Shown here: positions 1-41,914 of the stretch, piece by piece
How the letters are laid out: each line of letters starts with the position of its first letter
How positions within the stretch are numbered: position 1 is the first letter of the stretch
IMG/VR virus record: IMGVR_UViG_3300025853_000198
Coordinates: 1-41,914 of that record
Direction: 5' to 3' (one strand)
Length of the DNA: 41,914 bases
Source of the DNA: a virus
The notes under the pieces: generated by a model
Seen by the model: the letters and a program-made list of their open reading frames with translations, nothing else
Database searches by the model: none
What the model was told of the DNA's origin: nothing
Position numbers and translations under genes: made by a program

Positions 1-88
1 GTGGTATTATTTGGGGAGGGATTGAGATGGTGTAGAAGGGTTTTGAGGGGAGGTGAGTGATGATGAGGTTGTTGGATTGAGTTTTTAT
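1..88 (-). CDS. G-free array ORF alpha, partial at window edge
   Basis: The frame opens at ATA-AAA-ACT (ATA at 86-88), the same start box used by ORF gamma, and is TAA-free for 29 codons to the left edge. Predicted peptide begins (M)KTQSNNLIITHLPSKPFY if ATA initiates. Only A, C and T occur. It follows ORF beta after a 91-base gap that contains hairpin H1. No function recognised. Support comes from the shared start box and the array pattern; with so few codons visible this is the weakest member. Confidence 0.35.
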   Translation of the reverse strand, partial: MKTQSNNLIITHLPSKPFYTISIPPQIIP

Positions 89-113
89 GGTATTGAGGGG
101 TTGAGGGTTGTGG
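79..113 (-). repeat. Array leader/start box, copy before ORF alpha
   Basis: On the - strand it reads CAACCCTCAACC, then ACC-ATA-AAA-ACT. It follows hairpin H1. The ATA-AAA-ACT variant is shared only with the box before ORF gamma; both of these lie after a hairpin and a long gap. Confidence 0.7.
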
Positions 114-144
114 AATTTTTTTTTTTGAAGAATGAAAAAAAATT
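114..144. repeat. Hairpin H1 in the C-free tract
   Basis: Arms 114-123 and 135-144 (AATT plus T-run against A-run plus ATT) form a 10-bp all-A/T stem around a loop holding GAAGAATG. It lies in the long gap between ORFs beta and alpha. It belongs to a family with H2 and H3: similar loop, different stem sequences. A terminator, processing site or DNA structure is possible. Confidence 0.6.
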
Positions 145-179
145 GTTGGGTGTGAGTATGTGGGGTTTTTTGTTGAGGG

Positions 180-455
180 TTAGAGGATGATTGGGAGGAG
201 AAAAGGGATGTGGATGATGTGGAGGTGTTTTGTGGTGGTTTTGATAATGGTGGTGGTGAAGGGAGAGGATTGGAAAATGATGGAGGTTGGTGTGGTGAAG
301 TAGGTGGTGAAGTAGTTGGTGAGAGTGTTGGGATAAGAGATAAAGGGGTAGAATAGTTTGTTGGGATAAGATGTATTGAGTTGGAATTTTGTGTTGTTGA
401 TGGTGAAGTTTGTGATGTTGGGGAGTTGGGAGATTTGGAATGTAGTTTTGATAAT
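180..455 (-). CDS. G-free array ORF beta, 91 codons
   Basis: Starts at ATT-ATC-AAA-ACT (ATT at 453-455) and ends at TAA (180-182) inside another TAACCCTC box. An in-frame TAA lies two codons upstream of ATT, and no ATA, TTA or CTA occurs near the start. So neither a normal start codon nor a G-to-A-converted one is available there. The product would begin (M)IKTTFQISQLPNITNF and use only F, L, I, S, P, T, Y, H, Q, N and K, with a hydrophobic end (HIPFLLPIIL). Codon third positions are mostly C or A. Unrecognised protein. Start lies 18 bases after the stop of ORF gamma. A degenerate copy of the start motif (encoding TIIKTT) occurs inside the frame near 237-252. Confidence 0.45.
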   Translation of the reverse strand: MIKTTFQISQLPNITNFTINNTKFQLNTSYPNKLFYPFISYPNTLTNYFTTYFTTPTSIIFQSSPFTTTIIKTTTKHLHIIHIPFLLPIIL

Positions 456-480
456 GGTTTAGGTGGTTGAGGGTTAGTGG
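442..480 (-). repeat. Array leader/start box, copy between ORFs gamma and beta
   Basis: One of the fullest copies: - strand TAACCCTCAACCACCTAAAC leading into ACCATTATCAAAACT. The first TAA is the stop of ORF gamma, a second TAA closes the frame two codons before ATT, and ATT opens ORF beta. No purine-rich ribosome-binding sequence is present. Confidence 0.85.
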
Positions 481-1277
481 GAGAGGTGGGAGAGGGGTGA
501 GTTTTGATGAGGAAGGTTTTGTGTGTGGAAATGTGGATTGGAAATGTGTTGGATAGGTGTTTTGATGGGGTGTTGGTTTTTAGGTATGTTGAGAGTGTTG
601 GGAGTTTGGTTGAGTGGTTGAGGAGTAGGTTGGTTGTTGATGGGATTGGGGATAGTGGTGATGTGAATTTTGTTGGTGTTGGGAATTGGTTTGTTGATTT
701 GGATGGTGGGTGATGATGTGGGGAAATGTGTGGGTAGTTTGGGATTGGTGTATTTTTTGTTGTTGGGATGGTTTTGTGGATTGGGTTGTGGTTTTGTTTT
801 GTGATGGAGGATGGTGAAGTTGATGTGGATGATGGAGTATGGAGTGATGTGGAAGAGTTTGATGGTATTTTGGATGAGGAGGAGAATGTTGGGAGATTGT
901 TTTGTGATGGAGATAGTTTGTGGTTGTGTGTTGTTGATGTAGGTGATTTGGAGTTGGTAGTAGTTGTTGTTAGGTTGGAGTTTGGGTTGTTTTTTGAGGT
1001 TTGTGGGGTGGTTGTTGGAAGATAGGTTGTAGATGGGTTTAGTGTGTGGGTTAAAGTTGGGAGATTGGATAGATATGGAAGATGTGATGATGTTGAGTTT
1101 GGGGTGTGTGGTATTGATGTGTTTGAGGAAGGATTTGAGTGTAGGTTGTTGAGATGTGAGTTGGATGTGTTGTGGTGATGAGTTGTGAGATGGTTGGTGA
1201 GTGAGTAGGATATTGTAGGTGTTGAGGGTTGTGGTTGAGGGTGAGGTGGTATTGGGGGATGTGGTTGTAGTTTTTAT
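474..1277 (-). CDS. G-free array ORF gamma, 267 codons (longest)
   Basis: Starts at ATA-AAA-ACT (ATA at 1275-1277), 67 bases after ORF delta, with hairpin H2 in the gap. Ends at TAA (474-476) inside the leader box of ORF beta. Only four TTA triplets lie on the + strand across it, at 580, 970, 1039 and 1051, none in this frame, so 267 codons contain no stop. Codons are dominated by AAC, ATC, CTC, ACC, TTC, CCA and CAA. The product would be rich in N, P, T, I, Q, H and K, without acidic residues; one internal stretch, SPNILLLIQNTIKLFHITPY, looks protein-like. No family recognised. On the + strand the in-register frame is interrupted by TGA and TAG, which favours the - strand as sense. Confidence 0.45.
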   Translation of the reverse strand: MKTTTTSPNTTSPSTTTLNTYNILLTHQPSHNSSPQHIQLTSQQPTLKSFLKHINTTHPKLNIITSSISIQSPNFNPHTKPIYNLSSNNHPTNLKKQPKLQPNNNYYQLQITYINNTQPQTISITKQSPNILLLIQNTIKLFHITPYSIIHINFTILHHKTKPQPNPQNHPNNKKYTNPKLPTHFPTSSPTIQINKPIPNTNKIHITTIPNPINNQPTPQPLNQTPNTLNIPKNQHPIKTPIQHISNPHFHTQNLPHQNSPLSHLSH

Positions 1278-1293
1278 GGTATTTAGAGGGTTA
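1267..1293 (-). repeat. Array leader/start box, copy before ORF gamma
   Basis: Diverged copy: - strand TAACCCTCTAAATACC, then ATA-AAA-ACT. Lies just downstream (in - direction) of hairpin H2. Confidence 0.75.
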
Positions 1294-1311
1294 AAGGTTT
1301 GTATGTTTGAG

Positions 1312-1350
1312 AATTGATTATTTTTTGAAGAATGAAGAAAATAATTAATT
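1312..1350. repeat. Hairpin H2 in the C-free tract
   Basis: Arms 1312-1324 and 1338-1350 form a 13-bp stem with one G-T (wobble on the + strand, A-C mismatch on the - strand). The loop TTGAAGAATGAAG matches the H1 loop. The stop codon of ORF delta (1345-1347) lies in the stem, and ORF gamma starts 35 bases further on. Confidence 0.65.
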
Positions 1351-1743
1351 TGAGTTGTTATGGATGGATTGTTTGATATGGAGGTTTTGGGTTGTGAGTT
1401 TGAGGGTTATGGTGTAGAGGTTTTGGGTTTGTGTGATGATGTGGATGTAATAAGGTTGGTGGATTGTGGAGTTTGGAGGAATGATGTATTGATAGAGGTT
1501 GGGGTTGTGGTTGTTGAGTTGGAAGTGTGTTAAGGAGATGTAAGGTTTGGAATAAGGGGTAGAGATGATGTGTGGGTGAATAGTGAGGTGTTGTGTTTGG
1601 ATGATGAGTTGTTGGATTTGTTGGATGGGGTTAGGTATTTGGAAGAGAGGTTGTTTTTGAAGTGAAGAAAGAGGGATTTTGATTGAGTAGTTGAGGTTGT
1701 GGGTGAGTTGGATGAGGGGGTGTGAGTTTGTAGTTTTGATAAT
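1345..1743 (-). CDS. G-free array ORF delta, 132 codons
   Basis: Starts at ATT-ATC-AAA-ACT (ATT at 1741-1743), 19 bases after the stop of ORF epsilon and in a different frame from it, yet the open frame again begins exactly at the box. This is strong evidence that the box marks the reading frame. Ends at TAA (1345-1347), which lies in the stem of hairpin H2. The product would begin (M)IKTTNSHPLIQLTHNL and contains QIPNPIQQIQQLIIQTQHL. It is Q/N/I/T/P/H-rich with no acidic residues and no recognised family. Third codon positions are mostly C, then A. Confidence 0.45.
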   Translation of the reverse strand: MIKTTNSHPLIQLTHNLNYSIKIPLSSLQKQPLFQIPNPIQQIQQLIIQTQHLTIHPHIISTPYSKPYISLTHFQLNNHNPNLYQYIIPPNSTIHQPYYIHIITQTQNLYTITLKLTTQNLHIKQSIHNNSN

Positions 1744-1769
1744 GGTATGTTTGGGTTGAGGGTTAGGAG
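1730..1769 (-). repeat. Array leader/start box, copy between ORFs epsilon and delta
   Basis: - strand TAACCCTCAACC, a variable stretch, then ACCATTATCAAAACT. One base longer than the copies at 442 and 1999, so the upstream stop and downstream start are in different frames; the downstream frame still opens at ATT. Confidence 0.85.
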
Positions 1770-2011
1770 TAGATGTTAGGATTAAGTTGTTGGAGGATAG
1801 TGTTGAAGTTTGTGGTTGTGTTGAATTTGAATGATTGAGTAGTGAAGTTGAGGTGGTTTGTGAAGGTGATTGTGTTGTAGGGTGATTTGAAGTGGAGGTT
1901 GGTTGTGATTTGTGGATATGGTTGTGATGAGTTGAGTAAGAAGAATTGGTTAATGGTTTGGAGTTGAAGGATTGAGAGATATGGGATGAGTGGGTATGGA
2001 GTTTTGATAAT
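1763..2011 (-). CDS. G-free array ORF epsilon, 82 codons
   Basis: Starts at ATT-ATC-AAA-ACT (ATT at 2009-2011), 18 bases after the stop of ORF zeta. Ends at TAA (1763-1765), the first codon of the box that precedes ORF delta. The product would begin (M)IKTPYPLIPYLSILQLQ and contain ITTNLHFKSPYNTITFTNHL. It alternates polar and hydrophobic residues and has no acidic residue. No homologue recognised. Same reduced codon set and box-to-box boundaries as its neighbours. Confidence 0.45.
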   Translation of the reverse strand: MIKTPYPLIPYLSILQLQTINQFFLLNSSQPYPQITTNLHFKSPYNTITFTNHLNFTTQSFKFNTTTNFNTILQQLNPNIYS

Positions 2012-2036
2012 GGTATAGGTGGTTGAGGGTTAGAGG
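1999..2036 (-). repeat. Array leader/start box, copy between ORFs zeta and epsilon
   Basis: - strand TAACCCTCAACCACCTATAC, then ACCATTATCAAAACT; nearly identical to the copy at 442-480. Contains the stop of zeta and the start of epsilon, 18 bases apart. Confidence 0.85.
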
Positions 2037-2185
2037 TAGTTTTGAGGAGAGGTTGTGAAGAAGTGGAATTTAAGTGAGTGTAGTTTGATAATGATGTGGA
2101 AGTGTGTTTTTTTATTGATAATGGTTATGTTATTAAAGGGAGTGGTGAGAAGGAGATTGGTGATGGGGGATGTAGTTTTGATAAT
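2030..2185 (-). CDS. G-free array ORF zeta, 51 codons
   Basis: Starts at ATT-ATC-AAA-ACT (ATT at 2183-2185), with an in-frame TAA two codons before it, and ends at TAA (2030-2032) in the leader box of ORF epsilon. Hairpin H3 lies 36 bases upstream. The product would begin (M)IKTTSPITNLLLTTPFNN and is short, basic and hydrophobic. No family recognised. It is the first array member whose start and stop both coincide with boxes. Confidence 0.42.
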   Translation of the reverse strand: MIKTTSPITNLLLTTPFNNITIINKKTHFHIIIKLHSLKFHFFTTSPQNYL

Positions 2186-2202
2186 GGTTTAGTGTGTTGA
2201 TG
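2172..2202 (-). repeat. Array leader/start box, copy before ORF zeta (start half only)
   Basis: The start half TAAACCATTATCAAAACT is intact, but the CCCTCAACC half is not recognisable. Degenerate relatives of the motif also lie near 2080-2099 and 2114-2140 and do not open long frames. Confidence 0.65.
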
Positions 2203-2221
2203 TTGTAGGTTGGAAGTGAGA

Positions 2222-2251
2222 AATTATTTATTTATGAAGAAATGAATAATT
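2222..2251. repeat. Hairpin H3 in the C-free tract
   Basis: Arms 2222-2232 and 2241-2251 form an 11-bp stem with one T-G wobble on the + strand; the loop includes TATGAAGA. It sits between candidate ORF eta, whose stop lies in the stem, and ORF zeta. Confidence 0.6.
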
Positions 2252-2455
2252 GATGTGAGTTGGTAGGGTGTTGGAAAGAGGGTTGAGGATGATGTTAATA
2301 TGTGAATGGAGGGAGGTTGATAGGTTGTTGTGGTATGGTATGTGGGTGAAGGGTGGGAGAAGAGTGGAAGAAGAATTATGAAAGGATGATAATGTTTGGG
2401 GTAGAGATGACACCTGGCCCGGGGGGTGTAAATAAAATGTAATGATACCAGACAC
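2228..2455 (-). CDS. Possible leading array ORF eta, crossing the composition boundary
   Basis: A frame opening with GTG at 2455 in ordinary DNA crosses the boundary at 2410/2411 and continues through G-free sequence to a TAA at 2228-2230 inside hairpin H3, as ORF delta ends inside H2. Predicted start VSGIITFYLHPPGQV, end LPTHINYSFLHK, 75 codons. Its second half has the AAC/ATC/CTC codon style of the array. No start box is seen, and another frame (2224-2463) is also open, so both start and frame are uncertain. It may be a fortuitous fusion of flanking sequence to array sequence. Confidence 0.25.
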   Translation of the reverse strand: MSGIITFYLHPPGQVSSLPQTLSSFHNSSSTLLPPFTHIPYHNNLSTSLHSHINIILNPLSNTLPTHINYSFLHK

Positions 2456-2556
2456 CTACCCACGTACAGTTTTCCTTCCGCCGAACACTGCGGATAGGTA
2501 TTCTAGTTCACTATGGCGCAGCAGCTAGAACCTATAGATTTTGGTATAAGAAGATG

Positions 2557-2574
2557 TTATTACCGATGTAATAA
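2557..2574. promoter_or_regulatory. Operator-like palindrome TTATTACCGATGTAATAA
   Basis: Perfect 7-bp inverted repeat (TTATTAC / GTAATAA) around CGAT. The same motif recurs at 30701-30717, directly upstream of the primase gene, and as a half-site at 2746-2756. It is probably a binding site for a phage or host regulator; the regulator is not identified. Confidence 0.55.
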
Positions 2575-2703
2575 ACTTGATATATATATAGATCCTATCC
2601 GTTTTATTACTGTTATTATCAGTATTAGAGAATTTCACAGAAAAAAAAAATTTCAAAGCTCAAAGTTTTTAATAAATCAAAACTGATAGTCACACCGATA
2701 GTC

Positions 2704-2728
2704 TAAGTGATTGACTATCAATGACTTA
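2704..2728. promoter_or_regulatory. Operator-like dyad, 11-bp arms
   Basis: TAAGTGATTGA and TCAATGACTTA around CTA match as an inverted repeat except at one position. The dyad overlaps GACTATC, the inverted partner of the two GATAGTC repeats just upstream. It resembles a repressor site in front of the packaging operon. Confidence 0.5.
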
Positions 2729-2938
2729 GGGATTATTAGGGCAAATTATTACCGATGGTCACTCGTTAACACATTTGATAACCTATAGCTTTTCTTATAG
2801 GTTTACGAATCATAGGGATTTAGCTCTGCACTATTTTGGTTTTCAAGTTTACAACAATCAAAATCGTTGCTATTATAGAGGAGAGAACAGAAGACAGAGA
2901 ACAGAAGGTTATGAGGCCCTGGAGTCCCTGAGTAAGAT

Positions 2939-3526
2939 ATGTCAAGCCCACAAGTTACATTGGAAGGTGAATTGTTAGATCGTGTACTAACTGGAGAACT
3001 TACAAGAGAGGAAGCGGTTGCGATGAAGCTAGGGGCAGCGCCGGCGTCATGGCAACAGGGACAGAAATCCCCTGCAGAACGTGTGCGTGAAAACCTAGCG
3101 GAGGTATCCGCTCCACACCGACGCCAGAGAGAAAGGCGTAATCGCGCGGATCAAGATGCTGAGTTAGCTCCGACCACTCCTACCAGCACATCAAGAGACC
3201 TAGTAGCAGGGAAGAGAGGGAAGCTTACTGCGGCTGAGTTGCGACAAGTTCTTGATCTTGCTATTGAGGAAACAGGCCTTGAGCCTGTTTACGAACTCTT
3301 GAGAATGGTAAGAGCAGGCGAAGTTACCATGGATCAGAAGATCAAGATCTTGTCGGAAATCAATTCCTACAGAATGCCCAAGCTCAAAGCGGTAGAGTAT
3401 AAAGGTGAGATGGATCTGAATATCACGGTGCAAGTTAAACAATACGACACAAACGTACAATCACAAGATAGCGGCAAGGAATCTATCTTGATAGAAGCGG
3501 AGGAAGTGGCAGATGGGAGCAATTGA
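2939..3526 (+). CDS. Probable terminase small subunit
   Basis: 195 codons, directly upstream of and overlapping the large terminase gene by 14 bases, the usual position of the DNA-recognition subunit that brings concatemeric phage DNA to the packaging motor. The N-terminal third is charged and probably flexible. The C-terminal part contains KIKILSEINSYRMPKLKAVE followed by a beta-prone stretch, like the oligomerisation end of podovirus small terminases. I recognise no catalytic motif, as expected. The ATG at 2939 lacks a strong Shine-Dalgarno sequence. The call rests mainly on position and C-terminal character. Confidence 0.65.
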   Translation: MSSPQVTLEGELLDRVLTGELTREEAVAMKLGAAPASWQQGQKSPAERVRENLAEVSAPHRRQRERRNRADQDAELAPTTPTSTSRDLVAGKRGKLTAAELRQVLDLAIEETGLEPVYELLRMVRAGEVTMDQKIKILSEINSYRMPKLKAVEYKGEMDLNITVQVKQYDTNVQSQDSGKESILIEAEEVADGSN

Positions 3527-4877
3527 ACTACCGTATAACTGGGACCCTCGTTATTACCAACAACCAGTCTGGAATCACATGATGCCAGAGAAGGAGGGCC
3601 TGAGAGCAGTCTGCGTATGGCATCGACGAGGTGGTAAGGATCTCACTTGTGTGAATATCGCCCAGACAAAAATGATGCAACGGGTTGGGACGTACTGGCA
3701 CATGCTGCCCACATATAAGCAGGGCAGACAGATTGTGTGGGACGGCTTTACTCGTGATGGCCGAGCGTTCACAGATCATTTTCATCCGGATCTTATTCAG
3801 TCGAAGAATAATACGGAGATGAAGATCACGCTTAAGAATAAGAGTGTGTTCAGGGTGGTGGGAACGGATGACATCAACTCGCTAGTTGGCACGAATCCAA
3901 TTGGGGTTATTCTGTCAGAGTATTCGTTGCATAACCCTCAGGCGTGGGATTACCTTCGACCTATTCTGGCTGAGAATGGTGGATGGGCATTGTTCATCTA
4001 CACCGCTCGTGGGCATAATCATGGTTACCAATTGCTGAAGACCGCGAGGAAAAATGTGGCGATGGGACGCGAAAAATGGTTTTGCGAGGTCCTTGTGGCA
4101 GGTAATAATGGCACACAGAAACCAGTGGGAAAGAATCCCGACGGATCCCTGGTTATGGCACCGGTCGTCTCTGATCAAATCATCCAAGAAGAGCGTGATG
4201 CGGGAATGGAAGAGGAGATGATCCAGCAGGAGTTCTATTGTTCATTTGATGCAGCTATGGTAGGTGCTTATTATGGCCCGCAGATGACACAAGCAAGGAA
4301 AGACGGACGGATTACGAATGTGCCATACGATCCAGCTTTGCCCGTTACTACATCGTGGGATCTGGGTATGGATGACAGCACGACTATTTGGTTCATGCAG
4401 CGCACATCAATGGAAGTACGGATAATTGATTACTACGAGAACAGCGGCGAGGGTTTGTCTCACTACGCTCATGTTCTTCGGGAGAAAGGATATTCTTACG
4501 ATAGGCACTTTGGCCCACATGATATTAAGGTAAGGGAGCTTGGGACAGGGAAGTCCAGATGGGAGGTAGCTAAGCAGCTGGGTATTACGTTTACAGTGGT
4601 TCCCACACTGTCGAAAGATGATGCGATTGAAGCGGTTAGAGGATTGTTGCCATATTGCTGGTTTGACGAAAGCAAGTGTGACCGTGGGATCGATGCACTT
4701 GTTTCATATCGTAAAGAGTATGATCCAATTAAGAAGGTGTTCAAGAAAACTCCGGAACATGATTGGTCTTCTCATGCCGCTGATGCTTTTGTTCCACTCG
4801 CTCTGAAAACAAAAACCGGGATTGTTAGAAAGCAACGCCCTCAAATACAGGCACAAGATGACTTCCAATATCTATAA
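3513..4877 (+). CDS. terL: Terminase large subunit (packaging ATPase/nuclease)
   Basis: 454 codons, full length for a podovirus TerL. The N-terminal ATPase has a deviant Walker A, HRRGGKD (residues 37-43). A Walker B-like GVILSEYSL carries the catalytic Glu, and the coupling motif YTARG follows. The C-terminal RNase H-like nuclease starts at SWDLGMDDS, with late acidic and histidine residues in DWSSHAADAF. The protein docks on the portal, translocates DNA into the prohead and cuts it at the end of packaging. It overlaps the small-subunit gene. Confidence 0.95.
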   Translation: MGAIELPYNWDPRYYQQPVWNHMMPEKEGLRAVCVWHRRGGKDLTCVNIAQTKMMQRVGTYWHMLPTYKQGRQIVWDGFTRDGRAFTDHFHPDLIQSKNNTEMKITLKNKSVFRVVGTDDINSLVGTNPIGVILSEYSLHNPQAWDYLRPILAENGGWALFIYTARGHNHGYQLLKTARKNVAMGREKWFCEVLVAGNNGTQKPVGKNPDGSLVMAPVVSDQIIQEERDAGMEEEMIQQEFYCSFDAAMVGAYYGPQMTQARKDGRITNVPYDPALPVTTSWDLGMDDSTTIWFMQRTSMEVRIIDYYENSGEGLSHYAHVLREKGYSYDRHFGPHDIKVRELGTGKSRWEVAKQLGITFTVVPTLSKDDAIEAVRGLLPYCWFDESKCDRGIDALVSYRKEYDPIKKVFKKTPEHDWSSHAADAFVPLALKTKTGIVRKQRPQIQAQDDFQYL

Positions 4878-9583: not shown

Positions 9584-9609
9584 GGGGGGAGGGAAACCTC
9601 CCCCCCTTT
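9584..9609 (+). terminator. Rho-independent terminator after capsid genes
   Basis: GGGGGGAGG, loop GAAA, CCTCCCCCC, then TTT: a nine-base G/C-rich stem. It separates the highly expressed head genes from the tail genes; the next ATG is only five bases downstream of it. Confidence 0.85.
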
Positions 9610-32567: not shown

Positions 32568-34448
32568 TCATAACCAGTGGTCTCCTACATCCATGTCTGC
32601 CTTCAGTGGAACGCACATATCCACACAGGTTTCCATGACTCGTTTTATTTGTCCTGCTTGTTCTTCATCAACGACCGGACAGTTTAGTTCGTCGTGAACA
32701 GTCATATACGGAACAATGTCAAGTTCTTTCCGTACAGTAATAATCGCCCGCTTCATCATATCAGCAGCACTTCCTTGGATTAGTGCATTCAACGCCTTGA
32801 ATGACCAAGCACGTTGCACTGGAACATTTCCAAACGAGTGTTTGTTTTTCGATGGTGCCCGTCGATCATCAAAAGCACGCGGCTCCCAATAATTGAAGTG
32901 TCGCCGTCGGCCCTCAAGAGTGCGAATCCACCCTCTCGACGAAGCCCTGGACATGCAGAGCTCTGCCATTTGCTTAACGAACGGAACCTTATCGTTGAAT
33001 TCCTCAATGATCTCTTTAGCTTCAGCCAGGGGCTTGTTGAGCTTACTTGCCATCTTTTCTCCACCCATGCCGTAGCATAACCCCAGATACATGTCTTTGG
33101 CTACGCGACGAGATACACCAGCAGCCTCAACGAGATACTGGTAGAAGTCCATATCTGGATTGTCACGATATTGTTTTGCTGCATCCTCCGCTCCCTCCAT
33201 CTTGCACATAGTAGCGAAGTGCGTAAGTATTCGTGGCTCTTGTTGACTGTAGTCGAGCTTCGCCCACATCATTCCTTTGTCGGCGATAAACATACTTCGA
33301 ATGAGTCTTCCTTCCACATTGGTTCCACCGTCACGGGATTTTTCAGATGGAAACTGTTGCGCATTAGGCTGCTTTGACGCCATACGACCTGTCCTGGTCC
33401 CGCCGTCATCGGACTTGAGTTGTACCCAGTTGGGATGGATTCTACCATTAATGAGATTGCCGCGTATCCATCCGTCAAGGCAAGTGTGTCGCATACGGTT
33501 AACATGTCGAATTCGTTTAATATCGTTAAGCAGCGGGTGATCTTGCTGCATGATAAACTCCTTAGTAATACTCGCATTTCCTTTGGCGGTAAAAGGGTAT
33601 CGAACGCCGTTCTCATCGCATAGTTGTGCAATGCTTGGAGTTGACCATTCGTCAACCTGAGCTCCCCATTCGCGTAAGAAATGTAAGCGTAGCTCGTTTT
33701 CCTCTTCGATGAGGTTGTCTGATACTTGCTTTGCTTTTTCTTCATCAATAGGTATTCCTTTCAGTCGCATTTCCAATAGTATTGGCAACAACTCGCATTC
33801 CATTTGGAAGATGTCTTCCAAGTCTTCTGATTTCAGAATAGGCGACATTTTCTCGAAGATCAAGACTGGCGCTTGAGCATCCCATTCTGCGTATGGTCCC
33901 ACATATTGTGGAGGTAACTTCCACATCTCTCGCTTAGGATCAACACCCCAGGCAGATGCTGCTTCTTTTAGTAGATCTTCTGCTTTATTTGACCCAAGAT
34001 ACCGTTGACATAGTCTCCCGAGACTGTATCCCCGTTCATCTTCTTCATCGATGAGCGCTCCAGCAATCTGTATGTCAATGATCCGGCGTTTGCACGTAAC
34101 TCCAATAGATTCAAGTGCTTCCAGATCATATCCCAAGTTGGCACCGCAGATGTACTTATTAGGATCTCCGAGCAGATCAGAAAGGTATCTGGTAACCTGA
34201 TCTCGGTCCATTCGAAGATTATGGAATTCTGAGATTGGGAAGTACCATCCACGATCGCGAGTCCCAACGCTGATACCTGAGACTGTCGCATCACCTCGAC
34301 AGAATCCTGGACCATCTGTTGTAAGTCGTGGGTCTTTAGTTTCGGTATCAAGCCCAATGATAGCTTCTGATGAAAGGTTTGGGAAGTCCAATGGGATTGC
34401 CCAATCTGATCCTGGTTTGAAGAAGACGTCTTGCACATATTCAGACAT
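32568..34448 (-). CDS. Family A DNA polymerase with 3'-5' exonuclease
   Basis: 626 codons. The proofreading exonuclease has DTE (residues 34-36), ANLGYDLEAL and YAEWDA. Polymerase motif A is AKLDYSQQEPRIL, motif B RRVAKDMYLGLCYGMGG and motif C TVHDELN. All catalytic carboxylates are present, so it should be a full replicative enzyme. Starts 8 bases within the dCMP deaminase gene. Confidence 0.95.
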   Translation of the reverse strand: MSEYVQDVFFKPGSDWAIPLDFPNLSSEAIIGLDTETKDPRLTTDGPGFCRGDATVSGISVGTRDRGWYFPISEFHNLRMDRDQVTRYLSDLLGDPNKYICGANLGYDLEALESIGVTCKRRIIDIQIAGALIDEEDERGYSLGRLCQRYLGSNKAEDLLKEAASAWGVDPKREMWKLPPQYVGPYAEWDAQAPVLIFEKMSPILKSEDLEDIFQMECELLPILLEMRLKGIPIDEEKAKQVSDNLIEEENELRLHFLREWGAQVDEWSTPSIAQLCDENGVRYPFTAKGNASITKEFIMQQDHPLLNDIKRIRHVNRMRHTCLDGWIRGNLINGRIHPNWVQLKSDDGGTRTGRMASKQPNAQQFPSEKSRDGGTNVEGRLIRSMFIADKGMMWAKLDYSQQEPRILTHFATMCKMEGAEDAAKQYRDNPDMDFYQYLVEAAGVSRRVAKDMYLGLCYGMGGEKMASKLNKPLAEAKEIIEEFNDKVPFVKQMAELCMSRASSRGWIRTLEGRRRHFNYWEPRAFDDRRAPSKNKHSFGNVPVQRAWSFKALNALIQGSAADMMKRAIITVRKELDIVPYMTVHDELNCPVVDEEQAGQIKRVMETCVDMCVPLKADMDVGDHWL

Positions 34449-34866
34449 GTTGTTCCATGGTTAAATTGTATACTTTTGCGATGCGGAGTGTTTTGTCGAG
34501 ATCATCAGTCTCGTAGCCTGTCCTATATAAAACCCGCTTGATTCCAAGAGCTAACAACAGTATGCAGCATGATGGGCATGGGCGAGTTGTGGTAGCCACT
34601 GTTTCTGCCTCACCTCGTTTGATAAGAGCAGCCAGGTTTTGTTCAGCGTGAATCATGTAGTCACGTCTGAAGTTTCTGTCTTCCCAATACTTCTTCGGTA
34701 TTTCCATACCTGTTGGAAGACCGTTGTATGAAGTAGCTATAACACGCCACTCTTTTGTGAGAGCCACAGCACCGACTTTGCGGTACGGGTCTTCAGACCG
34801 CAAAGCAGCTGTTTCAGCTAGCCGTAAGGCGTAGTCAATTTTACTTATTCTAGAACTATTTTCCAT
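34441..34866 (-). CDS. dCMP deaminase
   Basis: 141 codons. Zinc site HAEQN (His73, Glu75) and PCPSC (Cys97, Cys100), with an early GAVALTKEWRVIATSYNGLP. It converts dCMP to dUMP, feeding dTMP synthesis. It overlaps the dCMP-hydroxymethylase-like gene by 22 bases, so the two enzymes that compete for dCMP are probably expressed together. Confidence 0.92.
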   Translation of the reverse strand: MENSSRISKIDYALRLAETAALRSEDPYRKVGAVALTKEWRVIATSYNGLPTGMEIPKKYWEDRNFRRDYMIHAEQNLAALIKRGEAETVATTTRPCPSCCILLLALGIKRVLYRTGYETDDLDKTLRIAKVYNLTMEQHV

Positions 34867-35624
34867 GGCTCCCTCCTTCCTACTTCTTCGTTTGCTTTGT
34901 AATCCAACCAGTGTATGAATTCCCCTGGAGAACTAAATAAATCTGGTGTCAATCTATCTGGGCTCGTGAATTCATCGCAGTCGTACATTTGGTTGTTGAT
35001 GTCTCCGTCATGAGTGGTATACAGGTGTCGATTACCTGCGAATATACCTACTTCGCCTGTTGTCAAGTTACTATAACCTTCTTGCCGCAGTTTAATTGCT
35101 AGCATAGTGGCGATGCATGAGAAGTTGAACATGTCATAAGGCAGTCCAACCCAGACGTCAGAACTACGCATGTTAACTGTGGTTTCTAGCTTGTCGTTAA
35201 CGATCTCAAACTGCATTGAGATGGTGCATGGTATGTCTAAGCTATTAGCTGGGCGTGGCTGCCAGATAGTAACAACTGCTTGTCTCGTTTCTGGGCTCTT
35301 GATTAGTAGATTGGTGAGCCACCGCCATTGTTGCATAATGTGCGGTCCGTAAGCGCCCATAAAGGCGTGTTCGTTGTCGGAATACTGCCCCATGAATTCT
35401 GGCATTGATTCCACATCGTTTCTTCCAGCGCAAGTCCAATAGGCTTCTCGCACCATGAAGTTGTAATTCAGGTTTCTGAATGAGCTTAGCACAACAGGCT
35501 GTTGTGCATCATATACTAATAAATGCCGGCGAGCAACTTGGGCATCACCGTTTCTAGTAGACTCGTACTCTCCGTTTTCCCAGACGTGTTTTAACGTCGA
35601 TAACCAGGCGTCAGTTGCATTCAT
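34845..35624 (-). CDS. dCMP hydroxymethylase-like (thymidylate synthase family)
   Basis: 259 codons. Thymidylate synthase fold: TRQAVVTIWQP, catalytic Cys133 in LDIPCTISMQF, phosphate-binding Arg153 and Asp156 in NMRSSDVWVGLPYD. Position 164, 31 residues after the catalytic Cys, is Asp. In thymidylate synthases this residue is Asn and selects dUMP (E. coli Asn177); T4 dCMP hydroxymethylase has Asp there. The usual PCH is PCT. So the enzyme likely modifies dCMP at C5 (hydroxymethyl, or methyl as in some phages). Coupled to both neighbours by overlaps. Confidence 0.8.
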   Translation of the reverse strand: MNATDAWLSTLKHVWENGEYESTRNGDAQVARRHLLVYDAQQPVVLSSFRNLNYNFMVREAYWTCAGRNDVESMPEFMGQYSDNEHAFMGAYGPHIMQQWRWLTNLLIKSPETRQAVVTIWQPRPANSLDIPCTISMQFEIVNDKLETTVNMRSSDVWVGLPYDMFNFSCIATMLAIKLRQEGYSNLTTGEVGIFAGNRHLYTTHDGDINNQMYDCDEFTSPDRLTPDLFSSPGEFIHWLDYKANEEVGRREPWKIVLE

Positions 35625-36142
35625 ATTACTTCCTCACATAGTATAGCAGTTGCTTGTTGTATTGCTGTTTTACGCTCATTCATCGGGATTGAAAATAGAA
35701 CCCCTTGGAATAGTGAAGAACAAATACGAACAAACTCTTCAGGTTTAAAGCGACGTTTCGCTCGCTGTGATCTGTTCCATTCTGACCCGTAAACACAATG
35801 ACGCAGGGCTTTTGCGATTAACGTTAGCGCTTGGCTTCTACGAAAGCGTTCACAGTTCACCATATCCAGTTCGTGTTCCACATGAATTTCCATTCCAGAG
35901 ATTTTGTACTTGGAACAGAGATCTTCGACACAAAGAAGCGTATTCAGACAAAAAGCTGCTTTAGCTTCATTGCGGTGTTCTGGGCAATCAATATTGTCTA
36001 GTTGGTACGCGGCTATTAGGAACCGTCGTTCCCATGGCTGAGGTAACCGCCCAGATTGATTATACCTTCGGGCCCAAGCGACCAAGTCCAACAAATTAGT
36101 GGACTTGGTCGCCCGGGGCATTGCTTGCTCGGAAAAGATCAT
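35621..36142 (-). CDS. Hypothetical protein in nucleotide-metabolism operon
   Basis: 173 codons, coupled by ATGA to the MazG-like gene upstream and by 4 bases to the hydroxymethylase-like gene downstream. Mainly helical, with conserved-looking cysteines (NIDCPEHRNEAKAAFCLNTL). No family recognised. The operon position suggests a role with the modified-nucleotide enzymes, but nothing in the sequence proves it. Confidence 0.65.
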   Translation of the reverse strand: MIFSEQAMPRATKSTNLLDLVAWARRYNQSGRLPQPWERRFLIAAYQLDNIDCPEHRNEAKAAFCLNTLLCVEDLCSKYKISGMEIHVEHELDMVNCERFRRSQALTLIAKALRHCVYGSEWNRSQRAKRRFKPEEFVRICSSLFQGVLFSIPMNERKTAIQQATAILCEEVI

Positions 36143-36681
36143 TTGACGAGATCTCCTAGGTTAGGTGCCTCCCAGCCCTCTGGTTTTACCACGTCGAACT
36201 CGCCTCCGCGATCTGATCCTTCTCCTTTTGAGATGACTTTCTGCATGTTGGCTTTGTGGACACGCCGCCAAGCCTCCGGGAAGTTAAACCCATGTAGATA
36301 CACTGTGCCGATGGCGAAGTACACCAGGTCGACAAGTGCGTCAAGGATCTCTTCCTTGTTGCCACTCTCAACAGCTTCCTTGTACTCGCCCAGCTCTTCG
36401 GCCATAGTGATCTCACGAAACTCTTGGAGATCTTCAGGCAGCAAACGACCAGGCCCAGTATACTCACGCAAGAACTTCTCGTGGAAGCACTTGATGTCGT
36501 CCCACATATCTTGGCTGAACTCGTTAGTTGGCGTCGAGCCAAACCGGTGGATCAACTCAGCAATGCCACGAATCATCATACCTTCACCGGTCTCATATTG
36601 CGGATCTTTGTGTTGGAGTCCGTTGATTCGAATATATGCCAAGCGGTCAAGCAAGGCCCTGTGAATTTGGTCTACTTTCAT
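36139..36681 (-). CDS. MazG-like nucleoside triphosphate pyrophosphohydrolase
   Basis: 180 codons. The helical metal-binding pattern AEELGEYKEAVESGNKEEIL, then DALVDLVYFAIGTVYLHG, is that of MazG/PRA-PH all-alpha pyrophosphatases, and the tail has KVISKGEGSD. Probably hydrolyses an NTP or dNTP to the monophosphate; next to dCMP-using enzymes it might supply or clear dCTP, but substrate is not readable. Confidence 0.8.
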   Translation of the reverse strand: MKVDQIHRALLDRLAYIRINGLQHKDPQYETGEGMMIRGIAELIHRFGSTPTNEFSQDMWDDIKCFHEKFLREYTGPGRLLPEDLQEFREITMAEELGEYKEAVESGNKEEILDALVDLVYFAIGTVYLHGFNFPEAWRRVHKANMQKVISKGEGSDRGGEFDVVKPEGWEAPNLGDLVK

Positions 36682-36682
36682 A

Positions 36683-37531
36683 TTAGTTGATTTTCATATC
36701 TGCCCAGTTTTCAGACGATCCCCAAGGACGTTCCTCGTCACGGAAGCCATTGGGAAATTGTTTTTCGTAGTTATCACCTTGGATTGGACTCAGCTCCCAA
36801 AGGGCATTACGAGACCCCTGGGGATAGAGTGGAGCAAGGACGCAGGACAAAAAGTTCGTGTCGTAATACTCTCTCAGGCGTTTGAATACTTGGATTTCGT
36901 GCTCATCCAAGAGATGTTGATAATCCCGTATAGATGCGAAGGTTCCGTGAACCGCTTCAATAGCGAATCCATGTTCTTCGAATACGGCACCCAGGGCCTC
37001 ATAGCGCATCTCGTTTACATGGTTTCCTGCACATGACTTCCGATCCCAGCAAGGAGTGCTGATGAAGATAGATCCAGTTGGTTTGATCAACCGCATCATT
37101 TCATCGAGCATCTTATGCATGAGCTCTGGTTCGACATGTTCAAGCACTTCGAATGAGGTGATCAGGTCGAATGATTCAGCATCCTCTTCGATGTCTACTT
37201 GACCGAAAGCGCACTGCTCCTTCAGTTCAAGTGGCCACGATCCAGTGTGGAATACTTGCTTGGCTTCGTCTTTGACTCGACCAGCATCGATACCGAGATA
37301 CCTTGCTGGCTTCATTTTCATTGAGTAAAGCATCTTCGCCATTGGAAGCTCTTTACCACAACCGACGTCCAGTATGTTGGCTGTTGCCCACGTCTTCTTG
37401 GCCATCAACCGTTTACAGACGTGTGACCACCGCATACAGTGGGCAATGTAATCGCGATGGATAAATCCTCGCTCCTCTGCGTTCTCCAGTGAGAGATACG
37501 TCTTGTCTATTGTTTTTCCTAGTTTGTTCAT
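36683..37531 (-). CDS. Class I SAM-dependent methyltransferase
   Basis: 282 codons from ATG 37531 (a TTG seven codons earlier is less likely). Motif I ILDVGCGKELP near residue 55, acidic motif II YLGIDAGR, and DLITSFEVLEHVEPELMHKM, typical of methyltransferases acting on small molecules, RNA, or lipid/glycan. It lacks the catalytic signatures of DNA C5 or N6 methyltransferases. A modification function in host takeover or nucleobase hypermodification cannot be decided. Confidence 0.78.
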   Translation of the reverse strand: MNKLGKTIDKTYLSLENAEERGFIHRDYIAHCMRWSHVCKRLMAKKTWATANILDVGCGKELPMAKMLYSMKMKPARYLGIDAGRVKDEAKQVFHTGSWPLELKEQCAFGQVDIEEDAESFDLITSFEVLEHVEPELMHKMLDEMMRLIKPTGSIFISTPCWDRKSCAGNHVNEMRYEALGAVFEEHGFAIEAVHGTFASIRDYQHLLDEHEIQVFKRLREYYDTNFLSCVLAPLYPQGSRNALWELSPIQGDNYEKQFPNGFRDEERPWGSSENWADMKIN

Positions 37532-37602
37532 AGTACCGCTTTTTAGTTTCAATCAGCGTAAGTATTATATTACGGATATGTATTTCTGTAAACCGAATTG
37601 TT

Positions 37603-39870: not shown

Positions 39871-40218
39871 TTATTCACTGGCATTTTCGAGTACGCTCTC
39901 CAGTATGGATTGCCAGGCTTGTGAATGTTTCTTGTACTGCGGATTGATCATGAAGCAAGTTATGATCTCGCTTCCAGCATATACTAATATGCCCATCGTT
40001 TCTAGATATAGCAGGCATATCTCTAGCTTCGACTTTTTCGTCTTATACCACATACCGAAGAAGCATGAATGAATTTCCGCGTTTTGAAAATTGCTTAGCA
40101 GTGTTTCTTCGGTTATCTCTATTTGAGCGGCATGTCTATCTGGTTTCTTTTTGAAGACACTAAGCATCGCATCGCGCATTTTTTCGGGTGTGAGTGGTCC
40201 AACCATTATTGTATTCAT
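39871..40218 (-). CDS. Hypothetical early protein
   Basis: 115 codons, MNTIMVGPLTPEKMRDAMLS at the start and a helical end. Two hydrophobic stretches (LEICLLYLETMGILVYAGSE) could be core strands rather than membrane segments. No family recognised. It lies downstream of a terminator, so it should have its own promoter. Confidence 0.55.
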   Translation of the reverse strand: MNTIMVGPLTPEKMRDAMLSVFKKKPDRHAAQIEITEETLLSNFQNAEIHSCFFGMWYKTKKSKLEICLLYLETMGILVYAGSEIITCFMINPQYKKHSQAWQSILESVLENASE

Positions 40219-40270
40219 TTTGACTAGTTTTCGTGGAACGTGTGCAGTCTACTGGTTTGCTTTAGGTATT

Positions 40271-40301
40271 AAAAAAACCCCGGTCTGTTTAAAGACCGGG
40301 G
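40271..40301 (-). terminator. Strong rho-independent terminator
   Basis: CCCCGGTCT and AGACCGGGG form a 9-bp stem with a T7 run on the - strand side. It ends the unit containing the DUF932 gene and the small membrane ORF. Confidence 0.88.
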
Positions 40302-40307
40302 CTGTGT

Positions 40308-40457
40308 TTATCGGAAGTATTTTCTCACCAGGCAGGTAATGACGTATGCCAGTAAAGGTGACACCATAATGGCGATTGATTTTAGTTTTGCATCACGTGA
40401 TCTTTTTGCTCGTATCTGGTAAGACTTCAGTTCTTGAAGCTTTCGGCCAGATCCCAT
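40308..40457 (-). CDS. Small overlapping membrane protein, 49 codons
   Basis: ATG at 40457 lies inside the end of the DUF932 gene in another frame, and the stop is immediately before the terminator stem, leaving no unused sequence. A basic N terminus (KLQELKSYQIRAKRSRDAKL) precedes one membrane helix (IAIMVSPLLAYVITCLV) and RKYFR. No Shine-Dalgarno site is obvious, so translation would depend on coupling. Function unknown. Confidence 0.5.
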   Translation of the reverse strand: MGSGRKLQELKSYQIRAKRSRDAKLKSIAIMVSPLLAYVITCLVRKYFR

Positions 40458-41212
40458 AGTTGTGTATTGATGAGTATGTCGCGATCAATTGATTTGATGG
40501 GTTGACTGCGTCCGAGTGAACGCCCGTGTACATCTTTGAGGTGGTCGCTTTGACCGCCGCGGATGATGTTTTCTTGAACTCTGTTGAATATTTTCCACAG
40601 ATTGTTTTGTGTGTCAGCTTCGCGTCTAGGCTCAAGAACAGTGGTTGTGCCGATAGGAGATCGTTTGATGTCACCGTAACGTATTTCTAGTGCTTTAGTA
40701 GCAAATTGAATTTGTTCGATGTTGTTTAGTTCACGATTTCGCATGCTGTCGATAGATTCAGCTGTTTGACGCAGTTTGAATCCCATTCGTTCAGTTGCCA
40801 TTGTGACCTGTTCGAGTGTTATGTCTTGGTGTTTGAACTTGACTTCGTCCAATGTTTTCTTCGATATGATGAGACCGTTAGTACAGACAAACACATGTAT
40901 ACCACCCAGCAGAGTATACTTAGTTGTACGGTCAGCAGAATTGATGAGAGCAATTGTAGGAATTTCTTCATATGTTTGTAATGCTGATGCTCCGAAGGTA
41001 ACGATGTGCTTTTGAAAGCCCTGGCGATCTGGTGTTCGTACTTTTTGTTCAGACGCGCTGATGATACCCCAGCCGTTTTTCTGTAGAGCTTCAACCATGT
41101 CCGTTGTGTGGACTGGTACATAGCGTTCAGATGCAGCAGATACCGGTTCTTTTGCAGCAATGGATGGAGCTCGTAAGATGGCTTGGTCGATGGATAAGAA
41201 GTTAGATTTCAT
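40427..41212 (-). CDS. DUF932 (phage/plasmid-like) protein
   Basis: 261 codons. ERYVPVHTTDMVEALQKNGW, FVCTNGLIISKKTLDEVKFK and NNLWKIFNRVQENIIRGGQS are characteristic of DUF932 proteins, common in phage early regions and plasmids. Their biochemical role is not established. Located between two terminators, in the early region. Confidence 0.85.
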   Translation of the reverse strand: MKSNFLSIDQAILRAPSIAAKEPVSAASERYVPVHTTDMVEALQKNGWGIISASEQKVRTPDRQGFQKHIVTFGASALQTYEEIPTIALINSADRTTKYTLLGGIHVFVCTNGLIISKKTLDEVKFKHQDITLEQVTMATERMGFKLRQTAESIDSMRNRELNNIEQIQFATKALEIRYGDIKRSPIGTTTVLEPRREADTQNNLWKIFNRVQENIIRGGQSDHLKDVHGRSLGRSQPIKSIDRDILINTQLWDLAESFKN

Positions 41213-41266
41213 AGTGCTATATTATTCCAAGATTGACTAACGGGGAACTTTATTTTGAATAAGAAA

Positions 41267-41288
41267 GGGGAGAGGTTGCCCTCTCCCC
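41267..41288 (-). terminator. Terminator after the first leftward gene
   Basis: GGGGAGAGG, loop TTGC, CCTCTCCCC: a 9-bp stem, followed on the - strand by TTTCTTATTC. Separates the 41299 gene from DUF932. Confidence 0.78.
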
Positions 41289-41298
41289 TGTTGGTGGT

Positions 41299-41901
41299 TT
41301 ACGTGGTTTGAATGATTTTACGGTTGATGAGTTGAGGGCGATAGTATTGGAAGATTCGCCATGCGTCTTGTCGCGTCTTGAGCTCAGTCGCTCGTTTGTA
41401 TACTTGTTCTTTGAGAACAGCCTCAGTTACCTCGCCTTTGTCGTCGAGGTTGTCTTTCATGATTTGCAAGCATGCTTTGGCTTGAGGAGTCTTGATCTCG
41501 TCGATTGTAGCCTGATCAGCTTCTGCATGCATTTTGTAGACGCGGGTGCTCAGTGAGGATTTGCGCTTTTTGGATCCATCGTTGTTGGTTTCAGCGATAA
41601 CGTTGGTGCGGTCTTCTGATTTGTTTGCCATTTCAAACCAGAGGAGTTGTGTGATCTCGAATTTTTCGAGATTTTTGGCAGGCTCCTTACCAAAGACAGC
41701 TTTGTGTTTTTCGATGGCTTGTTGCTTGGTTTTGAACGTGTCGTCGTATGTTTCCCATTTTTTGTGAATGACGCTGATTTTGTCCTTCGGAAAGTGCTGT
41801 GCTTCCGGCCTGGTGAATCGATACCATTTGTCGTCTCCGACTTGTGCCACCATACATTGGCGAAGGATTTCATTGCCGATGAGAAGGCGGTCTTTGTACA
41901 T
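41299..41901 (-). CDS. Hypothetical early protein, possibly cut by the window edge
   Basis: 200 codons from ATG 41901; the frame is still open to the last base (ADAP precedes MYKDRLL), so the true start may lie beyond the window. Mostly helical, charged, with C-terminal TRQDAWRIFQYYRPQLI resembling the end of the 39456 product. No family recognised. It is the most upstream leftward gene seen, so likely expressed early. Confidence 0.65.
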   Translation of the reverse strand: MYKDRLLIGNEILRQCMVAQVGDDKWYRFTRPEAQHFPKDKISVIHKKWETYDDTFKTKQQAIEKHKAVFGKEPAKNLEKFEITQLLWFEMANKSEDRTNVIAETNNDGSKKRKSSLSTRVYKMHAEADQATIDEIKTPQAKACLQIMKDNLDDKGEVTEAVLKEQVYKRATELKTRQDAWRIFQYYRPQLINRKIIQTT

Positions 41902-41914
41902 TGGAGCGTCTGCC

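Follow-up and report, generated by a model that had tools for sequence, protein, structure and literature searches.

A 2.5-kb phage tract without guanine in its sense strand that reads as an array of small genes with predicted AUU or AUA starts

The virus record IMGVR_UViG_3300025853_000198, a stretch of 41,914 nucleotides (nt) that was analysed as a whole and is called the window here, begins with a tract whose + strand contains no C and whose - strand, in consequence, contains no G. On this - strand six reading frames follow one another between recurring start and stop boxes, and these frames are very probably read as protein-coding genes. The statistics of the sequence establish reading frames of the coding type, the boxes and an in-frame indel, and from these we infer translation, the choice of start codons and an early timing of expression. 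The tract is one of at least two cases of long three-base genes; in the second, an operon of an unrelated T4-like phage, a different base is missing from the sense strand. Our preferred reading, to which we assign a probability of about 0.4, is that the tract comprises promoter-proximal early genes with AUU or AUA starts, from which G is excluded base by base owing to a penalty on each G in the early transcript or in its synthesis.

A first-pass annotation, made from the letters of the window alone, had described the C-free tract, and a direct count bears this out, with no C in positions 1-2410. The tract extends to 2,533 nt in a second contig of the same phage, IMGVR_UViG_3300034374_012381 (L003; 99.9% identical to the window), which holds it whole and flanked by normal DNA on either side, and a third contig spans its terminase-side edge. 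Since L003 links the end of the window to its start by 1,643 additional bases, the genome measures approximately 43.56 kb and is circular or permuted. Terminase, portal, capsid and tail genes are encoded on the + strand and replication and nucleotide genes on the - strand, and the tract is located between this late operon and the early-type operon, adjoining the terminase genes. In the - direction it is followed directly by small ordinary genes that start with ATG, several of them in an ACC-ATG context.

All six frames open, as had been proposed, at a box of the ACC-ATT or ACC-ATA type (ACCATTATCAAAACT in four cases, ACCATAAAAACT in two), and each closes at a TAA, which opens the stop box TAACCCTC in five of the six and begins a hairpin in the case of frame 3 (Table 1). 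Frame 6, which had been described as partial because the window cuts it off, is completed in L003 and ends there on TAACCCTC as the pattern predicts. The predicted products are built from only eleven amino acids (Lys, Asn, Thr, Ile, Gln, His, Pro, Leu, Tyr, Ser and Phe; nine are given up), and the C-terminal part of frame 4 is rich in Pro and Asn. A single-sequence AlphaFold model of frame 3 is all-beta and of low confidence (pLDDT 58, pTM 0.57); it has no significant match in the PDB and was not used as evidence.

The earlier proposal of a new type of gene array written with three bases stands in its substance, while one of its supports does not. Without G, TAA is the sole possible stop, so that open frames are long in any phase, and raw openness is weak evidence because the longest TAA-free frame (438 codons) sits in a phase other than the claimed ones; the length of open frames was therefore rejected as proof of coding. 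Randomisation, which had been named as a possible refutation, came out in favour of the array: not one of 4,000 dinucleotide shuffles left all six frame interiors open (the single probabilities multiply to 2.8e-5), and codon-position composition over the six frames gave a chi-square of 106, while 1,000 such shuffles reached 20.7 at most. The box-anchored phases score first among the 729 phase combinations for six frames, and a codon table taken from the ordinary genes of the phage and limited to G-free codons favours the claimed phase in every frame. When this codon model is applied in a sliding window, the favoured phase switches near the boxes across frames 1-3 and into frame 4, the second half of which is poorly resolved. 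At third positions, the ratio of NNC to NNT is 220:48 in the claimed phase versus 112:42 and 126:101 in the other phases, and a strong preference for C over T is likewise found in the early genes of the phage. Natural variation between the window and L003 comprises two indels only in the tract, a 6-nt deletion polymorphism that keeps the frame and one T in the poly-T arm of a spacer hairpin, and this comparison thus rests on two events, both of which are consistent with the frames.

Table 1. Features of the tract and of the window (positions in the window unless L003 is named).
Feature	Position	Strand	Remarks
C-free (+) / G-free (-) tract	1..2410		complete as L003 5211-7743; zero C in 2,410 (window) and 2,533 (L003) bases
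Frame 1	2033..2185	-	51 codons; ATT start after ACC; in-frame stop TAA 2030-2032 opens TAACCCTC
Frame 2	1766..2011	-	82 codons; ATT start; stop 1763-1765 opens TAACCCTC
Frame 3	1348..1743	-	132 codons; ATT start; stop 1345-1347 at hairpin start
Frame 4	477..1277	-	267 codons (265 in L003); ATA start; stop 474-476 opens TAACCCTC
Frame 5	183..455	-	91 codons; ATT start; stop 180-182 opens TAACCCTC
Frame 6	1..88 (partial)	-	ATA start; 50 codons in L003 (5426-5277)
6-nt deletion polymorphism	815..820	-	inside frame 4, frame kept; the 6 nt are missing from L003
Box-like sequence ACCATTATCAAAACC	237..251	-	within frame 5, in frame
Box-like sequence ACCATTATCAATAAA	2111..2125	-	within frame 1, in frame
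Hairpin, A-T pairs only	114..144	-	between frames 5 and 6; window and L003 differ here by a 1-nt indel
Hairpin, A-T pairs only	1312..1350	-	between frames 3 and 4; same loop CATTCTTCA
Hairpin, A-T pairs only	2222..2252	-	upstream of frame 1
Deoxycytidylate deaminase-like	34441..34866	-	
Thymidylate-synthase family pyrimidine hydroxymethylase	34845..35624	-	Asp (PYD) in place of the thymidylate-synthase Asn, like T4 gp42
MazG/PRA-PH-type nucleoside triphosphate pyrophosphohydrolase	36139..36681	-	member of the hydroxymethylase cassette
Normal early genes downstream, same direction as tract	39871..41914	-	joined to tract through L003 3696-5210; G content climbs with distance from tract

The exclusion operates on single bases, because not a single C occurs in the 2,533 nt, 502 of which lie outside the frames, and because the hairpins are rebuilt from A-T pairs alone. 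Since these 502 nt are just as free of G as the frames, a cause at the level of codons or tRNAs was rejected. Counted in bins of 500 nt, the G content of the sense strand is 0 for 2.5 kb and then 0.10, 0.15, 0.17 and 0.19, and it reaches approximately 0.25 after some 8 kb; the depletion persists through about 6 kb of the early operon downstream of the tract, and the upstream edge is sharp. In the early genes G and T are both reduced and A and C increased, and the A and T contents of the tract equal those of the neighbouring genes. An origin of the tract by G-to-A conversion of ordinary genes was rejected, as the A and T contents match those of the neighbours and Lys is too rare. As RNA, the hairpins of the tract are weak and its predicted folding is near zero; two hairpins in the downstream early region, by contrast, have an ordinary stability (-14 to -17 kcal/mol).

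Two further observations were made in L003. Between ordinary early genes, L003 carries a near-identical pair of strong hairpins without T-tails (3905-3945 and 4570-4612; GATACATCATCT...AGATGATGTATC), which are possible processing or regulatory elements. At the upstream edge, an open reading frame of 75 codons (L003 7561-7788) with a GTG start at window position ~2455 runs from normal DNA into the tract and ends at the first hairpin; its phase is the one preferred there by the codon model, and it is possibly an additional gene.

The second case was found in contig IMGVR_UViG_3300008266_000014 (G001), which belongs to an unrelated T4-like phage with a gp23-type head protein, sheath and polymerase. 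Its operon of 1.4-1.7 kb (contig positions 151383-153066, equal to 1910-3593 of locus L083) contains four genes whose sense strand is without C, in consecutive C-free runs of 188, 1,372 and 108 nt that are split by a single C and by a terminator. The few Cs near this gene block are located in the terminator stem, a place at which transcription should stop in any case. Apart from this operon, short G-free and then C-free runs (~35-48 nt) were seen at the divergence of early and late genes in phages AXL3 (L193 47438-47518) and PW916 (L194 18958-19037), both GC-rich, with the polarity of G001 in miniature.

Taken together, the tract and the G001 operon lead us to propose one rule at the level of RNA, according to which the transcript of a promoter-proximal gene block does without one particular base. 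The tract would be the promoter-proximal part of the - strand, early-type operon and would hold at least six small protein genes, set apart by short spacers and A-T-only hairpins and started at AUU or AUA in an ACC-AUN context, since AUG cannot be written without G. G would be kept out of the transcript at the level of single bases, whether these belong to codons, spacers or hairpins, with an exclusion that fades over the next 6 kb. As AUG and all amino acids with GNN codons are given up, the pressure against G must outweigh good start codons and protein chemistry, or G must be mutationally unable to persist. With slightly better than even odds, the cause would lie in the early transcript or in its template, and its best-supported form would be a penalty on each G in the transcript or in its synthesis. 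Bacterial viperins can make ddhCTP, ddhUTP and ddhGTP, which act as base-specific RNA chain terminators (PMC10732462), and a host-derived chain-terminating nucleotide of the ddhGTP type is one candidate agent; a G-specific ribonuclease would be another, and for any specific agent the odds are low. The products of the first genes might then lift the block, leaving later genes free to use G, and the C-free operon of G001 could represent the same answer to a block on C. Put as a whole, and tentatively, an early operon may have been rewritten in three bases, with AUU or AUA starts and eleven amino acids, in order to get past a block that is specific for one base and acts on the synthesis or stability of early RNA, and a T4-like phage may independently have chosen to do without C.

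Several observations weigh against this proposal. Neither a viperin nor a G-specific ribonuclease is tied to the phage, and homologues by which the frames might prove to be conserved were not found in the viral collection, the phage records, Pfam and PHROGs. A penalty on each G leaves the lowered T content of the early genes unexplained, and the frame that possibly enters the tract from the GTG start would have G in its first codons. In G001, moreover, the C-free stretch extends ~90 nt past the terminator and, in the upstream direction, ~225 nt beyond a plausible start of transcription; immediately on its left, 217 nt of the opposite strand have no C (the same strand lacks G there), so that an effect on DNA strands fits better there than one purely on RNA.

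An alternative that places the cause in the template holds that C is replaced by hydroxymethyl-C or a larger derivative which hinders the unmodified host RNA polymerase, so that the first genes need a C-free template to be transcribed and encode products that adapt the polymerase for the remaining genes. We regard this as unlikely, while it has concrete points in its favour, as it is precisely C that is barred from the template strand of the early genes, with a downstream gradient, and as the phage carries a fitting cassette (window 34441-37552) of a deoxycytidine monophosphate (dCMP) deaminase, an Asp-type pyrimidine hydroxymethylase, a kinase-like protein, a nucleoside triphosphate pyrophosphohydrolase and a methyltransferase. 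The base-discriminating residue is Asp in the window protein, MW202510, AXL3 and T4 and Asn in PaMx11, and the window protein is thus probably a dCMP hydroxymethylase and a candidate for base modification. The cassette is common to AXL3, PW916 and MW202510, and AXL3 DNA is cut by only 2 of 37 restriction enzymes, both with A/T-only sites (PMC7504290); the shared cassette suggests that the protein called thymidylate synthase in AXL3 is in fact a dCMP hydroxymethylase, and such an enzyme would account for this resistance; only by analogy with it might modified C be expected in the virion DNA of the window phage. Against a modified template stands that MW202510, the closest known relative (Podoviridae sp. 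ct3Et533), AXL3, PW916, MW202621 and HTVC200P are without any base depletion of this type, and that the G001 template lacks G and not C. No thymidylate-synthase-family hydroxymethylase, QueC or TGT/DpdA was found in G001, and modified G there, for which QueC and TGT were searched, was discarded as a candidate.

Two explanations appear to us rather improbable, to a similar degree. In the first, C would be lost from one strand in a directed manner by a deaminase or nuclease that attacks single-stranded DNA around an origin or end, and the frames would be older genes, kept as far as possible, or their relics. The absolute absence of C, spacers included, would agree with this, as would the ATA starts, which look as ATG would once a C on the opposite strand had turned into T, and the C-free strands of G001, which point away from one switch point as around an origin. 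However, C-to-T changes should raise the T content of the + strand, whereas the gain is in G and the A and T contents remain at the level of the neighbouring genes; four of the six starts are ATT, the frames retain the codon bias of the phage and carry an in-frame indel, and the terminator stem of G001 retains its Cs. The second explanation is selection for an unstructured, leader-type mRNA, in which, without G, neither G-C nor G-U pairs could form and first genes without a Shine-Dalgarno sequence would stay open to ribosomes. The predicted folding of the tract RNA, the base composition of the early genes, low in G and T and high in A and C, and the removal of G-C pairs also by dropping C, as G001 does, fit this idea, but a single stray G forms no structure and yet none occurs in 2,533 nt, and the loss of AUG should cost more translation than is gained.

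That the tract is a non-coding DNA element (a packaging site, a telomere-like end, an origin or cassette sites) with accidental frames is very improbable: its position beside the terminase genes, where the early and late operons diverge, the GAGGGTTA boxes and the repetition of boxes and hairpins would suit such an element, and it is already contradicted by the codon statistics, the phase resets at the boxes and the in-frame stop boxes. An assembly or chemical artefact, for example a bisulfite-like conversion, for which the extreme composition alone would speak, is practically negligible in view of two overlapping contigs that differ by natural variants, the normal DNA that adjoins the tract on either side, the third contig over the terminase-side edge, and a conversion that would yield T-rich and not G-rich sequence.

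Searches by blastn of the tract against phages and DNA-pattern and protein scans of viral contigs returned the same phage only, plus G001 through its C-free content; homologous arrays in related phages, which the first-pass annotation had named as a check, were found neither in the viral collection nor in the phage records, Pfam or PHROGs. The six frames have no homologue in Pfam and PHROGs, and searches with Rfam and for tRNAs gave nothing. Other one-base-free runs of at least 110 nt are absent from 2.45 Mb of phage and bacterial loci, and runs of 80 nt from 30 terminase-related virus records. C-free runs of at least 156 nt occur in 14 of 398 Pseudomonadota genomes, where the matches listed are simple repeats or extremely AT-rich DNA except for one run of 177 nt, and in none of 17 further genomes; three viral contigs have C-free runs of 175-228 nt around GAT repeats. 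A search of the literature for cytosine- or guanine-free phage genes found nothing relevant, and phage genes written without one base seem not to have been described before, which to our knowledge applies likewise to the G001 operon.

A separate difference between contigs lies at window 9590-9600, where GGGAAACC is inverted to GGTTTCCC in contig L002, between short inverted G/C repeats and at the overlap of two reading frames; a hairpin-mediated micro-inversion is possible.

If the proposed reading is true, genes that forgo one base over kilobases, and with it the universal start codon and nine amino acids, would mean that selection on single bases of a transcript can exceed selection on proteins. 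This would be a sign that phage infection involves a base-specific pressure not recognised so far, with a sequence signature for finding it, and the tract would offer a natural test of ribosome initiation on mRNA with neither AUG nor a Shine-Dalgarno sequence.

The known systems resemble the proposed gene array in part only. MW202510 and the AXL3-type phages share with the window phage the genome layout, the terminase, the polymerase and the nucleotide-modification cassette, while their corresponding region has a normal base composition and no array. The G001 operon is likewise a kilobase-scale block of small phage genes of unknown function with one base absent from the sense strand, spacers included, but it lacks C and not G, has ATG starts and Shine-Dalgarno-like leaders, and shows no sequence similarity to the tract. 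Prokaryotic viperins, whose ddhNTP chain terminators attack RNA synthesis in a base-specific manner, like the proposed agent, would supply a possible reason to drop one base; they are a host defence that was not seen here, and the link is conjecture. Non-AUG initiation is known from the AUU start codon of E. coli infC. Like such starts without a Shine-Dalgarno sequence, the frames of the tract would begin at AUU or AUA, but the known cases are single autoregulated genes in ordinary sequence, whereas here a whole array would be started in this way.

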